From Microbispora sp. NBC_01189 (lineage in GTDB: Bacteria > Actinomycetota > Actinomycetes > Streptosporangiales > Streptosporangiaceae), in the NCBI RefSeq assembly GCF_036010665.1, contig NZ_CP108581.1:6195501-6259500 (forward strand): a stretch of DNA of 64,000 nt. Reading direction: 5' to 3'. This document shows, one piece after another, positions 58,842-63,687 of the stretch. Position 1 is the stretch's first letter. Each line of letters starts with the position of its first letter. The notes beneath the pieces were generated by a model, which saw nothing but the letters and a program-made list of their open reading frames with translations, was not told the origin of the DNA and ran no database searches. Made by a program: the position numbers and the translations under genes.

Positions 58842-58870
58842 AGGGCGCCCGCTCGCCGAGCGGGCGCCCT
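58842..58870 (+). terminator. Rho-independent-type terminator after PKS D
   Basis: A perfect 12-bp stem (58842-58853 with 58859-58870), 5-nt loop, followed by TT, 20 bp after the PKS D stop. It closes the PKS C-D transcript before the TetR gene. Confidence 0.8.
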
Positions 58871-58935
58871 TTGGCGGCCGCGCGTTTTTACGTATGATTA
58901 AGACAACTGTATTAGACGGCGTAAGGATTTCGATT
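58871..58935 (+). promoter_or_regulatory. TetR gene promoter with candidate operator
   Basis: TATGAT (58893-58898) is a good -10 box; TTGGCG (58871-58876) a weak -35 at 16 bp. ACGTATGATTAA (58890-58901) is repeated exactly in front of the exporter gene, and GTATTAGAC (58909-58917) recurs there inverted. AAGGA at 58923-58927 is the ribosome-binding site. Autoregulation by the TetR product is inferred. Confidence 0.6.
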
Positions 58936-59550
58936 ATGGGACACCGCGAGGACCTGCTGGAGGGCGCCAAGCGCTGCCTGCGCGAGAAGGGGTACGCCCG
59001 TACCACCACCCGTGACATCGTGGCGGTCTCCGATACGAACCTCGCCTCGATCGGGTACCACTTCGGGTCGAAGGAGAACCTGCTCAACGAGGCCCTGATC
59101 GACGCGCTCGGGGAGTGGGGCAAGGAACTGGAGGGCGCGCTCGCCGCGGCGATGGGCCAGGACGGCGGCGCGCTGGAGCGGTTCGAGTCCATCTGGAGCC
59201 GCCTCGTCGAGTTGTTCGCCAACGACCGGGCCCTGTGCGCCGCGAACATCGAGGTGTTCGCGCAGATCGAGCACGTCCCGACCGTGCGCCAGGTGCTCGC
59301 CGACGGCCTGGAGCAGGGCAGGGAGGGCCTCGGCCGGCTGTTCGGCACGGTGAGCGAGGACACCGACCAGGAGACCGCCCGCGCCGTCGGGTCGTTCTAC
59401 CAGGCCCTGGTCACCGGGGTCATGGTCCAGTGGCTGATCGACCCCGGACACGCGCCGTCGGGTCACGACCTCACCGTGGCGCTGCGCCAGATCGCCGCCG
59501 GCCTGATGTGGAACGGCGGCGCCCGGGAGCCCGAGCCCGAGCACGTCTGA
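58936..59550 (+). CDS. TetR-family transcriptional regulator
   Basis: 204 residues. The N-terminal helix-turn-helix spans about residues 25-44 (TTRDIVAVSDTNLASIGYHF) and is followed by GSKENLL, the usual TetR linker to the ligand-binding domain. The ATG at 58936 is chosen because AAGGA lies 8 bp upstream; an earlier in-frame ATG at 58894 falls inside the likely -10 box. Its promoter shares a 12-bp block with the promoter of the DHA2 exporter at 62116, so the exporter is the likely target, with the polyketide or a precursor as possible inducer. It ends facing the reverse-strand monooxygenase operon. Confidence 0.9.
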   Translation: MGHREDLLEGAKRCLREKGYARTTTRDIVAVSDTNLASIGYHFGSKENLLNEALIDALGEWGKELEGALAAAMGQDGGALERFESIWSRLVELFANDRALCAANIEVFAQIEHVPTVRQVLADGLEQGREGLGRLFGTVSEDTDQETARAVGSFYQALVTGVMVQWLIDPGHAPSGHDLTVALRQIAAGLMWNGGAREPEPEHV

Positions 59551-59600
59551 GCGCCCGGGCACATCCGAGGGCAGGCGCATCCGAGAGCCGGCACGATGAA

Positions 59601-59627
59601 GGCCCGGAAGGCATCGCCTTCCGGGCC
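59601..59627. terminator. Bidirectional hairpin between TetR and the monooxygenase gene
   Basis: A perfect 12-bp stem (59601-59612 with 59616-59627) around a 3-nt loop, lying between two convergent genes, 50 bp from the TetR stop and 31 bp from the end of the reverse gene. Confidence 0.75.
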
Positions 59628-59658
59628 CTCCGCCGGGTGACGTGGCGCGACGTGGCCG

Positions 59659-60936
59659 TCAGTCGTCCTCGTCGTCGGTGTTCTCCAGCATCTCCGCCTG
59701 CTCCGCGCTGATCACCACGTGGGAGACGTCGACGGTGGCCGGCTGGTGGCGCGAGAGCGCGTCCTTGATCGGCACCTCGAGACGCGCGGCCTTGGCCGCG
59801 TCGAGATCCTCCCGGCGCTCGGCGAACTCGGGCATGACCTCCCGGGCGAACAGCTCCAGCGACTCGCAGATGTGCTCGTGCTTGTTGGCGCCGATCTGCA
59901 CCTGGAAGATGATCTGGTCGACGCCGACCTCCTCGTACGACCGGACCAGCTCGCGCAGCTGGTCGGGCGTGCCGATGGCCTTGCGGAGGTTGTCGATCCG
60001 GGCGAGCAGGTCGGGGTCCATGTCGGCCCGGGTCTCCGGGGGCAGGTGCCGGCTGAAGCCGAAGGCGTCGCGGTTCTCCGCGAAGTCCCTGGCGATGTCG
60101 GTGGCGCCCGGCCGGTGCGCGCCGTGCATCCAGTAGTGCAGGAACGAGTAGGCGAAGAAGTGGGCGCCGTGCACGCCGCGGTCCAGCGCCGTCTCCTCGT
60201 CCTCGTGGCACATGAACGGCATGACCAGCGCGAAGTTGGGGTTGACCGCGTAGCCGGCCGGCACGCACTCCTCGGAGGCGATCAGATCGTAGTAGGTCTC
60301 GACGCGCTCCTTGGCCTCCTCGGGGGAGACGAACGCGAACGACAGCGCGCCCATGCCGTTGCGCGCGGCGTGCTCCACCGTCTCGGGCGAGCTGCACGCC
60401 ACCCACAGCGGCGGGTGGGGCTTCTGCTTGGGCTTGGGCACCACATTGCGCGGCGGGACGTTGATCCACTGACCCTGGTGGCCGGTGAACGGCACCTCGG
60501 TGAGCATGCGGGTGATGACGTCGATCGCCTCCCGCCACTGCTCGCGCTTCTTGTCGCGCTCGACGTCGAAGGCGCCCACCTCCAGCTGCGTGCTGCCCTG
60601 GCCGCTGCCGAAGTCGACCCGGCCGCCGGAGATGAGGTCGAGGGTGGCCAGGCGCTCGGCCACGCGTACGGGGTGGTTCACGTTCGGCGGGATCGAGACG
60701 ATCCCGTGCGCGAGCCGGATGTTCTTCGTCCGGGCCGCGGCGGCGGCCAGGAAGACCTCGGGGGCGGCCGAGTGGGAGTACTCCTCCATGAAGTGGTGCT
60801 CGGTCTCCCACACATAGTCGTAGCCGAGGCGGTCGGCGAGCTCGATCTGCTCAAGGGACTCCCTGAGCACCCGCTCCTCGCTGTCCTCGGTCCACGGCTT
60901 CGGCACCTGGTGGTGGTAGAACAACCCAAAGCGCAT
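59659..60936 (-). CDS. Luciferase-like flavin-dependent monooxygenase (LLM family)
   Basis: 425 residues, about 60 longer than many LLM enzymes. The N-terminus MRFGLFYHHQ, the WETEHHF motif, the SGGRVDFGSGQG stretch and the PPLWVA strand are typical of the bacterial-luciferase TIM-barrel family, which uses FMNH2 or F420H2 with O2. The substrate is unknown. It follows the SDR by 3 bp on the same strand, so the pair forms an operon. It could be a tailoring step on the macrolactam, but LLM plus mycofactocin-type SDR pairs also occur in catabolic operons, so membership in the cluster is uncertain. The tail after about residue 395 is acidic (ENTDDEDD). Confidence 0.87.
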   Translation of the reverse strand: MRFGLFYHHQVPKPWTEDSEERVLRESLEQIELADRLGYDYVWETEHHFMEEYSHSAAPEVFLAAAAARTKNIRLAHGIVSIPPNVNHPVRVAERLATLDLISGGRVDFGSGQGSTQLEVGAFDVERDKKREQWREAIDVITRMLTEVPFTGHQGQWINVPPRNVVPKPKQKPHPPLWVACSSPETVEHAARNGMGALSFAFVSPEEAKERVETYYDLIASEECVPAGYAVNPNFALVMPFMCHEDEETALDRGVHGAHFFAYSFLHYWMHGAHRPGATDIARDFAENRDAFGFSRHLPPETRADMDPDLLARIDNLRKAIGTPDQLRELVRSYEEVGVDQIIFQVQIGANKHEHICESLELFAREVMPEFAERREDLDAAKAARLEVPIKDALSRHQPATVDVSHVVISAEQAEMLENTDDEDD

Positions 60937-60939
60937 GAT

Positions 60940-61791
60940 TTACCACACGCCCCTCTTGAGCAGGGCACCGGCGTCGATCTTGAACTGGTTGCCGGTGACG
61001 TAGCGGGACTCGTCCGACGCGAGGTAGACGATCGCGTGCGAGACGTCGGACGGGTCCAGGCACGGGATGGGCATGCCGTGGATCATGGCGAAGGAGGCGT
61101 TGCCCTCCTCCCGGGTCGGGTGCTCCAGGTCCGGCCGGAACAGCCGCCACACGGACTCGTTCTGGATCATGTCGGTGTCGACGTTGGTCGGGTGGATGGC
61201 GTTGACCCGCCGGCCCGAGGGCGCGAGCTGGAGCGCCAGTGTGTTCACGTACTGGATCAGCGTGGACTTGGCCAGGCTGTATCCGAGGCCGCCGGGGCCC
61301 ATCGGGCCCGGGTCCCCGCGGTCGGGGATCAGGCCGACCATCGAGCCGACCACGATGACCGAGGCGGTCTCGCTCAGGTGCGGCAACGTGGCGTGAATCG
61401 TGTTGATCACGCCGACCAGGTTGATGTCGACGGTGTCGGTGAACGCGGTGATCGGCCGGTCCGGCCCGAGCACGCTGATCCCGGCGTTGGGGATCACGAC
61501 GTCCAGCCTGCCCAGCTCGGCCACGCCGTCGTCGATCGCGTTCTGCAGTTCGGCGCGGTCGCGGACGTCCACCTGCCGGCTGAAGATCCGGCGGCCGGTC
61601 TGCTCGACCAGGCGGACGGTCTCCTTCAGGTCTTCGACGGTGGCCATCGGATACTGGGCGACCTCGATGTCCGTGCAGGCGTCCAGCGCGATGATGTCGG
61701 CGCCTTCCTCCGCCAGCCGGACGGCGTGGCTGCGTCCCTGCCCACGCGCCGCACCGGTGATCACAACGACCTTGTTTTCCACGCGGCCCAT
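60940..61791 (-). CDS. SDR-family oxidoreductase of the mycofactocin-coupled type
   Basis: 283 residues. Rossmann motif TGAARGQG (12-19), NAG (102-104) and the catalytic Ser150, Tyr171 and Lys175 (YSLAK) are intact. ARGQGRSHA and the YPMAT stretch in an insertion after the second strand (residues about 38-70) are hallmarks I recall from mycofactocin-coupled SDRs, such as carveol-dehydrogenase-like enzymes, which hold NAD(P) tightly and pass electrons to mycofactocin. The ATG at 61791 has AGGAGG 5 bp upstream. An open frame continues to 62073 but without SDR-like sequence. It is the first gene of the operon with the LLM monooxygenase; no mycofactocin biosynthesis gene is in the window. Confidence 0.88.
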   Translation of the reverse strand: MGRVENKVVVITGAARGQGRSHAVRLAEEGADIIALDACTDIEVAQYPMATVEDLKETVRLVEQTGRRIFSRQVDVRDRAELQNAIDDGVAELGRLDVVIPNAGISVLGPDRPITAFTDTVDINLVGVINTIHATLPHLSETASVIVVGSMVGLIPDRGDPGPMGPGGLGYSLAKSTLIQYVNTLALQLAPSGRRVNAIHPTNVDTDMIQNESVWRLFRPDLEHPTREEGNASFAMIHGMPIPCLDPSDVSHAIVYLASDESRYVTGNQFKIDAGALLKRGVW

Positions 61792-62115
61792 ACGGCCCTC
61801 CTGTGGTATGTGCGTCAAGGAATCTCCCGAACAGGATGTCCTGCCGGGGATGTCCGTCGCTTCCCGCAAGCACCCCTGACATCGCCGCGAGGCCTCGGCG
61901 CGCGGTAGGGGTGCGTCGGCAGCCGGACCCCTACTCCACCCCTGACCTGTGGCTTCTGCCTTCAGATCGCCGTGACGGCGTGCTTGTCTTGCGGTGCGGA
62001 ATCCGTGTTCACCTCCCCTGTCACCCCCGATGACGAGACGGAGCGACCACATGATCAGGATCCTCAGCGGCAACTCGGTCTATACAAGGGTCTAATACGG
62101 ACGTATGATTAAATC
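61792..62115. promoter_or_regulatory. Divergent intergenic region between the SDR operon and the exporter
   Basis: 324 bp without a credible gene. The SDR side has ACCCCTGAC twice (61872-61880 and 61938-61946) and an inverted pair GTAGGGGT/ACCCCTAC (61905-61912 and 61927-61934), possibly regulator sites. The exporter side has GTCTAATAC (62090-62098), the palindrome ATACG-GA-CGTAT (62095-62106) and TATGAT (62104-62109), a likely -10 box with TATACA (62081-62086) 17 bp upstream. Confidence 0.5.
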
Positions 62116-63687
62116 ATGACTACGAATCAACTCGCCGGACGTAAGGAATGGCTGGCGCTCGTCGCACTCGCGGTGCCGCCTCTGCTGGTCGCCATCGACA
62201 TCACGGTGCTCTACTTCGCCATCCCGTCGATCGCGGCAGACCTCAAGCCCTCCAGCACGCAGCAGCTGTGGATCATCGACATCTACGGGTTCGTGCTGGC
62301 CGGCATGCTCTTGACCATGGGTAACCTGGGCGATCTGTTCGGCCGCCGGCGCACCCTGATGATCGGTTGCACCATCTTCGGGCTCGCGTCCCTCGGCTCG
62401 GCGTTCGCCACGAGTCCCGAGATGCTGATCGTGTGCCGCGCGGTGCAGGGCCTGGGCGGAGCGGCGCTGATGCCGTCCTCGCTCGCGTTGCTGCCGGTCA
62501 TCTTCACCGACGCCAAGCAGCGCCGCACCGCCATCACGGTGTTCTCGCTGGCCATCTCGGCCGGCGCGGGCTTCGGGCCGGTGCTGAGCGGTGTGCTGCT
62601 GAACAACTTCTGGTGGGGCTCGATCTTCCTGATCAACGCTCCGATCATCGCGATCCTGCTGATCGCGATGCCGTTCCTCGTCCCCGCCTTCCGGCCGCCG
62701 CGCGACCAGGTCGGCCAGTTCGACACGCTCAGCGCGCTGCTGTCGCTGGTGGCGGTGCTCAGCGTGATCTGGGGCGTCAAGGAGCTCGCGATCAACGGCC
62801 TGGAGGCGGTCCCGCTCGGCGCGGTCGTCGGCGGCATCGTGCTCGCGGTGATCTTCGCGTTGCGGCAGCGTCACCTGACCCACCCGATGATCGCTCCGCA
62901 GCTGTTCAGGACCCGCGGCTTCCTGCCGGTGCTGACGGTCAGCGCCACCGGGTTCTTCCTGGTGATCGGGTTCTCGGTGTTCACCACGCAGTTCCTGATG
63001 GAGGTCATCGGCCTGCGGCCGCTGCCGGCCGCGCTGTGGTCGATGGCGTCCCCGGTGATCGCGGGCAGCCTCGTGCCGGTCGCCATGGGCATGGTCGAGA
63101 AGGTGAAGCCGGCCTACCTGATGGCGTCCGGGTTCCTGCTCGCCGCGATCGGCTTCGGCATCATGACCCAGGTCACCGCCGACAGCGGCATCTTCCTGGT
63201 CGTGAGCGGCATCGTGGGCATCGGCGTCGGCACCGCGCTGCTGTTCGCCCTGCTGACCGACATGGCGGTCGCGATCTCTCCGCCGCGGCAGGTCGGCGCG
63301 GTCTCCGCGCTCACCAAGACGCTGCAGGAGTTCGGCGGCGCGCTCGGCCTGGCGATCTTCGGCACCATCGGTGCGGCGATCTACCGGAACTACCTGGGCA
63401 CCCAGATCGACGGTGTGCCGGCCGATGCCGTGCGCGCCGCCCGGCAGACCATGGGTGGCGCGGTCGCCGTGACCCAGTCGCTGGCGCCCGACGCCGCGAG
63501 AGCGCTGCTCGCGGTCGCCCGTGAGGCGTTCGCCAAGGCGACCAGCCTCACCGCGATCCTCGGCATCGTGATCGCGCTCGTGTCGGCCGTACTGCTGGTG
63601 ACCCGGCTCAGCCACGTCACGTACACGAAGGAAGGAGAGGAGGTGCTCCCCGGGCCGGTCACTCCGGAGGTCCCCACCGCGATTTGA
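62116..63687 (+). CDS. MFS drug exporter of the DHA2 (14-helix) family
   Basis: 523 residues, strongly hydrophobic with about 14 predicted membrane segments. Family motifs: the loop GNLGDLFGRRRTL after helix 2 and the antiporter motif GAGFGPVLSG in helix 5. This proton-driven family exports antibiotics and is a common self-resistance element at cluster edges. The ATG at 62116 has no ribosome-binding site, and a good -10 box ends 6 bp upstream, so a leaderless transcript is likely. The promoter shares its -10 region with the TetR gene, which suggests control by that repressor. Export of the macrolactam is inferred from position. Confidence 0.9.
   Translation: MTTNQLAGRKEWLALVALAVPPLLVAIDITVLYFAIPSIAADLKPSSTQQLWIIDIYGFVLAGMLLTMGNLGDLFGRRRTLMIGCTIFGLASLGSAFATSPEMLIVCRAVQGLGGAALMPSSLALLPVIFTDAKQRRTAITVFSLAISAGAGFGPVLSGVLLNNFWWGSIFLINAPIIAILLIAMPFLVPAFRPPRDQVGQFDTLSALLSLVAVLSVIWGVKELAINGLEAVPLGAVVGGIVLAVIFALRQRHLTHPMIAPQLFRTRGFLPVLTVSATGFFLVIGFSVFTTQFLMEVIGLRPLPAALWSMASPVIAGSLVPVAMGMVEKVKPAYLMASGFLLAAIGFGIMTQVTADSGIFLVVSGIVGIGVGTALLFALLTDMAVAISPPRQVGAVSALTKTLQEFGGALGLAIFGTIGAAIYRNYLGTQIDGVPADAVRAARQTMGGAVAVTQSLAPDAARALLAVAREAFAKATSLTAILGIVIALVSAVLLVTRLSHVTYTKEGEEVLPGPVTPEVPTAI

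Follow-up and report, generated by a model that had tools for sequence, protein, structure and literature searches.

How can a repressor encoded inside a polyketide gene cluster reach an exporter gene that is separated from its own by an operon on the opposite strand? The question is raised by a locus of Microbispora sp. NBC_01189, for which we analysed a window of 64,000 nucleotides (G000:C1:6195501-6259500) within the one-contig genome of 7.37 Mb (7,371,534 bases). Here the gene of a TetR-family repressor (tetR; 204 aa, 58936-59550, forward strand) is followed by that of a DHA2-like MFS exporter (523 aa, 62116-63687, forward strand). A first-pass annotation had placed the two genes 2.5 kb apart with a reverse operon between them, and this is borne out by a measured gap of ~2.57 kb, from the end of the tetR stop at 59550 to the exporter start at 62116, which holds a luciferase-like (LLM) monooxygenase gene and an SDR gene on the opposite strand. 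The same annotation had also pointed to a 12-bp block and an inverted 9-mer common to both promoters, and to what it took for a good repressor site in that of the exporter. Comparative sequence supports control by the TetR, but the predicted unit is the core ANACRNNYGTNT and not the 12-mer. Together with a third operator found outside the window, the evidence makes it highly probable that a cluster-situated TetR repressor co-regulates itself, the exporter and a SARP-type activator.

Paired cores at the tetR and exporter promoters

Perfect ANACRNNYGTNT cores (8 of 8 specified positions) occur only twice in the 64 kb, as AGACAACTGTAT at 58901-58912 before tetR and as ATACGGACGTAT at 62095-62106 before the exporter gene. 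Each is accompanied, exactly 13 bp upstream, by an imperfect core, namely TTACGTATGATT (6/8; 58888-58899) at tetR and ATACAAGGGTCT (7/8; 62082-62093) at the exporter, and no such phased core pair was found in 400 kb of background from the same genome. The main cores belong to extended palindromes at 58896-58917 and 62090-62111, which can be read as TAAGACA-AC-TGTATTA (58899-58914) and TAATACG-GA-CGTATGA (62093-62108), respectively. A position weight matrix (PWM) trained on relatives only gave these window sites scores of 32.0 and 25.5, followed by 14.9 and 9.9 for positions overlapping them and then by 5.5; the maximum in the 400-kb background (20 stretches of 20 kb) was 16.4. The window tetR gene is thus preceded by a conserved palindromic site at which TetR binding is predicted.

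Both core pairs coincide with promoter-like sites on the forward strand. Before tetR, TTGGCG (58871-58876) and TATGAT (58893-58898) are separated by a 16-bp spacer and match 9 of 12 consensus positions (58871-58898; one site found versus a mean of 0.0 in shuffles, a consensus match only), while TATACA (62081-62086) and TATGAT (62104-62109), with a 17-bp spacer, match equally well before the exporter gene (62081-62109; one site versus a mean of 0.1). At tetR the upstream core overlaps the -10 element, and transcription is expected to begin within the main core, a start point that is itself inferred; at the exporter the upstream core overlaps the -35 element. The palindrome ATACG-GA-CGTAT, described earlier as lying over the exporter -10 box, is indeed present at 62095-62106, but it reaches only the first three bases of TATGAT. 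Because six bases separate this -10 element from the ATG and no ribosome site was seen, the exporter transcript is probably leaderless. For tetR, translation most likely begins at the ATG at 58936 and not at the one inside TATGAT at 58894, given that 104 of 107 relatives have ATG, and 2 have GTG, at the codon aligned with the former.

In the mechanism we propose, dimers of the 204-aa TetR would occupy ANACRNNYGTNT cores. Adjacent dimers would be spaced at 13 bp, roughly a turn and a quarter of the helix, and hence be rotated by ~86 degrees relative to each other. Two dimers would overlap the -35 and -10 elements at the exporter promoter, and the -10 element and expected start point at the tetR promoter.

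Closer inspection of the repeats that first drew attention to the locus confirmed their coordinates. The 12-mer ACGTATGATTAA lies at 58890-58901 and 62101-62112, each copy with TATGAT, and the 9-mer at 58909-58917 has an exact inverted copy at 62090-62098. With up to two mismatches the 12-mer has two matches in the window versus 0.13 expected, and with up to one mismatch the window copies are its only matches in the whole genome (control 0); the 9-mer alone is weaker (three window matches with up to one mismatch versus 0.70 expected). The 12-mer was nonetheless set aside as the operator. It starts at base 7 of the main exporter core and at base 3 of the upstream tetR core, and is unlikely to be the binding unit because these registers differ. 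Most of it is contained in the weaker upstream tetR core, and a weak core within it (NNACGTATGATT, 6/8), which may be a candidate site, is in phase at tetR and 4 bp out of phase at the exporter.

A motif scattered throughout the genome would have spoken against a shared operator, and in this respect neither the 12-mer, the palindrome nor the two-core pattern proved common. The palindrome TAATACRNNYGTATTA, with up to two mismatches, occurs at three genome places, of which the two with one mismatch are the window sites (backward control 2). With up to two mismatches the two-core pattern is restricted to the exporter, tetR and a paralogous tetR; with up to three it has 31 places, versus 11 for its control.

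Phased core arrays upstream of related tetR genes

Conservation of the operator was assessed in 107 loci carrying TetR relatives (80 + 27; two near-identical orthologues left out). A palindrome pattern derived from the window (14 positions, at least 10 matched, within 150 bp before tetR) was present in 92 of the 107. In the first run, which covered 93 relatives and left out 14 on the other strand that were included later, the pattern occurred in 82, compared with 5.6% of dinucleotide shuffles and 0/93 for every one of the three coding controls. Scored on their own, half-sites beyond the main palindrome peaked at exactly -13, +13, -26 and +26 (54, 43, 28 and 29 of 92, respectively), and those at 12 or 14 bp in either direction numbered 0 or 1 of 92.

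The same period emerged from the cores themselves, scored as ANACRNNYGTNT with at least 7 of the 8 specified positions matched. The regions upstream of the 107 related tetR genes contain 355 cores, of which 219 pairs are spaced at 13 bp, 142 at 26, 94 at 39, 43 at 52 and 14 at 65; the commonest distances outside this series are 4 bp (8 pairs) and 17 bp (6), and none fall at 8-12 or 14 bp. After dereplication, 61 regions retained 189 cores and 116 pairs at 13 bp (7.4 cores and 0.005 pairs in mononucleotide shuffles). A longest in-phase run of 0, 1, 2, 3, 4, 5 or 6 units was found in 5, 5, 22, 9, 8, 9 and 3 of these regions, respectively; over all 107 relatives, 96 have a run of at least two, and one reaches nine. 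Independently of any motif, self-matches of the upstream regions peaked at lags of 13, 26 and 39 (8.2, 6.0 and 3.8 standard deviations). A divergent exporter lies beside the TetR gene in 45 of the 107 relatives, and the mean run is 4.1 in these pairs versus 2.1 in the other 62.

A strict period with the look of direct repeats could also be the product of tandem duplication, unrelated to repressor binding, and at one free position neighbouring units do agree more often than composition predicts (0.35 versus 0.25). The other three free positions give 0.29, 0.30 and 0.38 against 0.26, 0.32 and 0.46 from composition; as the agreement between neighbours is thus close to the composition-based value at all free positions but one, simple duplication is disfavoured, and with the phase kept in 61 dereplicated regions we regard this origin as exceedingly improbable. 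Arrays in about a hundred TetR relatives suggest a repressor family that may line up in rows along promoters.

Searching 297 genomes with a three-unit array pattern (up to three mismatches) identified arrays in 77, compared with 6 for the backward control; a TetR relative at E <=1e-25 was present in 170 of the 297. Among 30 array loci that were fetched, 29 adjoin a relative of the window TetR, the distance from its start to the centre of the array being 32-67 bp. Two of the 29 match the TetR weakly (E 1e-10 and 5e-7), and the remaining locus, L244, consists of a simple repeat. Two loci, L246 and L250, show variant arrays around position 1520, with AAAC/GTTT-type cores, weaker TetR relatives adjacent and an exporter start ~1 kb off, and may represent a sister subfamily that shares the 13-bp phase.

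The window protein itself is a confident member of the TetR family. It exceeds the cut-offs for PF00440 TetR_N (44.3 bits, cut-off 24) and for the C-terminal domains PF13977 (30.5, cut-off 27) and PF17940 (30, cut-off 27.4), and its AlphaFold model has nine helices and a mean pLDDT of 92.5. Foldseek matched this model to TetR-family structures with probability 1.00 (TM ~0.65); of the 50 structures listed, the nearest were uncharacterised regulators together with EbrR and QacR, none of them above 25% identity, and the best PDB sequence match has an E-value of 4e-7. Its score with the model NF041196 (25.2 bits, cut-off 150) does not place it among the ScbR-type gamma-butyrolactone receptors. In 37 aligned TetR rows, 26 of the first 49 residues are invariant, the recognition-helix region included, which is in line with a single predicted operator type across the family.

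The tie between operator and TetR was also apparent from the exporter side. We compared 27 exporter relatives from other genomes (29 less two orthologues). Where a TetR relative was present in the fetched DNA, cores were found in 6 of 6 loci (22 cores, 14 pairs at 13 bp); where no such TetR was nearby, in 0 of 21. One of the latter, L150, gives a 10/14 match to the first pattern at the very border of its sequence stretch and has no ANACRNNYGTNT core. This distribution bears on the possibility that the repeats merely reflect a shared promoter type, with the same sigma factor and a similar -10 region, plus chance. Such an account would explain why both 12-mers hold TATGAT at a promoter-like -10 position, and the shifted registers of the 12-mer relative to the cores are what chance overlap would produce. 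We nevertheless consider it very improbable, because the conserved feature is the core with its 13-bp phase, which is unlike a sigma consensus, cores are lacking from exporter relatives without such a TetR, and nearly every locus fetched from the array search carries a member of this TetR family. Taken together, the comparative data strongly support a predicted control of tetR and the exporter gene by the TetR through a shared site.

A third predicted operator and a paralogous TetR

The genome-wide pattern search led to 26 loci that were scored with the PWM, and five sites reached at least 25: those of tetR, the exporter, a SARP gene, the paralogous tetR (26.9) and a Polyketide_cyc2 gene (31.1). 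The SARP operator (L121:10045-10066; genome 6269444-6269465) lies ~10 kb past the window and has a PWM score of 25.2 and a perfect core. A gap of 166 bases separates it from the ATG of the downstream gene for a SARP-type regulator (1021 aa; BTAD, NB-ARC and TPR regions), after which a second SARP-type regulator, of 832 aa from the chosen start, is encoded. The 1021-aa protein is classed as a putative SARP activator from its BTAD domain (PF03704, 152.7 bits) and N-terminal DNA-binding domain, the latter slightly under its cut-off (PF00486, 24.4 versus 26.2); NB-ARC scored 57.1 bits, and the AfsR model 628.2 bits, below its cut-off of 1430. The site is retained in the orthologous clusters of two genomes, G200 (29.8) and G065 (21.1), with TATACATTTGT unchanged and flanking bases differing on both sides. 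The Polyketide_cyc2 site (L005:1498-1519; G000:C1:1542582-1542603) is found far from the cluster, 24 bases before the gene of a 180-aa protein with that domain.

With this third operator, the proposed mechanism would extend to the cluster as a whole. The TetR would be released by a ligand, which is probably the product of the polyketide pathway or one of its intermediates, and release would switch on export, tetR itself and, via the third operator, the SARP-type regulator, which may in turn activate the cluster.

In both orthologues the two window operators are identical to the window copies. In G200 the bases from ~62056 to 62068 are replaced by ~180 others, and everything from ~62069 on, including the -35 element, is kept. 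The insert itself (L131:12360-12540), some 180 bases in place of about a dozen just upstream of the exporter promoter, is GC-rich.

These features bear on whether the TetR might be autoregulatory only, its exporter and SARP sites being weakly or not occupied in vivo. The tetR site has the highest score of the three, and in the portion of PMC3511530 available, three of four TetR-family regulators separated by >200 bp from a divergent neighbour exerted no control over that gene, two being judged autoregulatory. This alternative is quite unlikely in our judgement: the exporter cores overlap the -35 and -10 elements and are kept in the orthologue with replaced DNA just upstream, and among the 27 exporter relatives cores accompany such a TetR only.

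A different concern is the paralogous TetR at G000:C1:3537545, which shares 50% identity with the cluster TetR and has the same operator type before its own gene, an array of four 13-bp registers (7, 6, 7 and 7 of 8) at L132:7473-7523 (G000:C1:3537472-3537522). It might be the main binder of the cluster operators, or the two proteins might cross-regulate. We think this unlikely, because the cluster TetR is encoded within ~3.2 kb of both window sites, both orthologous clusters, G065 and G200, retain the operators next to it, and the paralogue deviates at residues invariant in the 37 aligned rows, e.g. H3N, N35S and G44R.

Several observations weigh against co-regulation by the cluster TetR. The paralogue could bind the same cluster sites. 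The window arrays are short, with one perfect and one imperfect core each, and the search pattern used detected no three-unit array in the Microbispora genome. No -35/-10 consensus was found beside the SARP site, whose right half is eroded in one orthologue, and as G065 and G200 show 95-97% overall identity, conservation of the window sites there is weak evidence alone. Among the 107 relatives, 15 fall below the pattern threshold and 11 have no two cores in phase. Finally, looser patterns do not stand out: when up to one mismatch is allowed, TWDKACRNNYGTMTNA matches the genome 16 times forward and 17 times in reverse (control, 23 and 28), and GTCTANNACGNNCGTNNTAGAC, when up to three are allowed, 7 times (control, 5), the window sites not included. 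Because such single-site patterns do not rise above their controls, an isolated weak match carries little weight, and we relied upon the PWM and the phase. One looser-pattern place, 6282778, falls in L170, where the best PWM score is 4.9; another, 6780598, is outside the scored loci.

Gene context, precedents and implications

The window contains large polyketide synthase genes (type I as read by eye), together with genes carrying VinK_C, aminotransferase and AMP-binding domains. VinK is described in the accessible part of PMC11284099 as the acyltransferase that loads a dipeptidyl starter in vicenistatin biosynthesis, and the cluster product may be a macrolactam. Between tetR and the exporter, on the reverse strand, lie the LLM monooxygenase (59659-60936; PF00296, 185.9 bits) and a mycofactocin-coupled SDR oxidoreductase (60940-61791; TIGR03971, 341.8 bits, cut-off 300), adjoining each other inside the polyketide cluster; a PWM scan of the window revealed no high-scoring operator before this SDR-LLM operon. 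An ABC transporter begins at the right end of the window. Just before the tetR promoter, after a polyketide synthase gene, a near-perfect GC-rich inverted repeat of 27 bases (58843-58869) looks terminator-like by eye; a terminator scan did not report one. The exporter scores 147.7 bits with PF07690 MFS_1 (cut-off 33.4) and 168.5 with TIGR00711 (EmrB), below the cut-off of 230.2. Its best NCBIfam models, LfrA and QepA, also remain below cut-off.

One possible history, with evidence on either side, starts from a divergent tetR-exporter pair between whose genes the LLM-SDR operon later came to lie. Among exporters that have such a TetR adjacent, the closest (G182, 49-50%) is divergent, whereas the five nearest tree rows to the window TetR are without a divergent exporter and its branch is long.

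Several known systems offer partial parallels. EthR of Mycobacterium tuberculosis is a TetR-family repressor of which several dimers bind cooperatively to a 55-bp operator with 15-bp direct repeats and inverted repeats (PMC9210681, in the part available). The operator here is likewise repeated, and multi-dimer occupancy is predicted from the arrays, but its units are 12-bp palindromic cores with a strict 13-bp period, and no entry named EthR was among 36 PDB sequence matches of the window TetR. QacR and CprB are dimer-of-dimers regulators with two dimers per operator of 28 and 22 bp, respectively (excerpts of PMC4150764). QacR resembles the proposed system in that the gene it represses encodes an exporter, and QacR structures rank with the nearest folds of the window TetR; unlike the QacR and CprB operators, the units here repeat at 13 bp, with up to six in phase in the dereplicated set. 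All three are precedents for several dimers per operator.

TetR/tetA and other divergent pairs are alike in combining a repressor and an exporter with operators serving both promoters (PMC3511530, same portion), but in the window a reverse operon of two genes lies between the repressor and exporter genes, which carry separate operators. Operators of seven regulators in that portion look different from the window operator by eye, those of Pip differ by description (PMC5743821, as far as available), and the AvaR1 ARE oligos are another site. With regard to the mycobacterial exporter LfrA and its repressor LfrR, LfrA is the best NCBIfam match of the window exporter, at 329.9 bits far below the equivalog cut-off of 825 (NF033896). 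Within the open-licence literature, no paper related to the core sequences was found by title, and no description of the 13-bp array of this TetR subfamily, as judged from listings.

More broadly, we see about an even chance that these proteins are a widespread actinobacterial TetR subfamily with operators repeated at exactly 13 bp, so that adjacent half-sites are one base apart and the repressors could form a contiguous row. The number of units would then set the steepness or depth of repression, and in Microbispora short versions on three promoters would tie export to the SARP. For a large TetR subfamily, the findings provide a sharp binding rule, predicted from sequence, from which targets could be read even when they are not neighbouring genes. 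Here the rule would connect the exporter with the gene for a regulator in the same polyketide cluster, and the natural arrays of one to six units should make dimer-dimer cooperativity on DNA directly testable.

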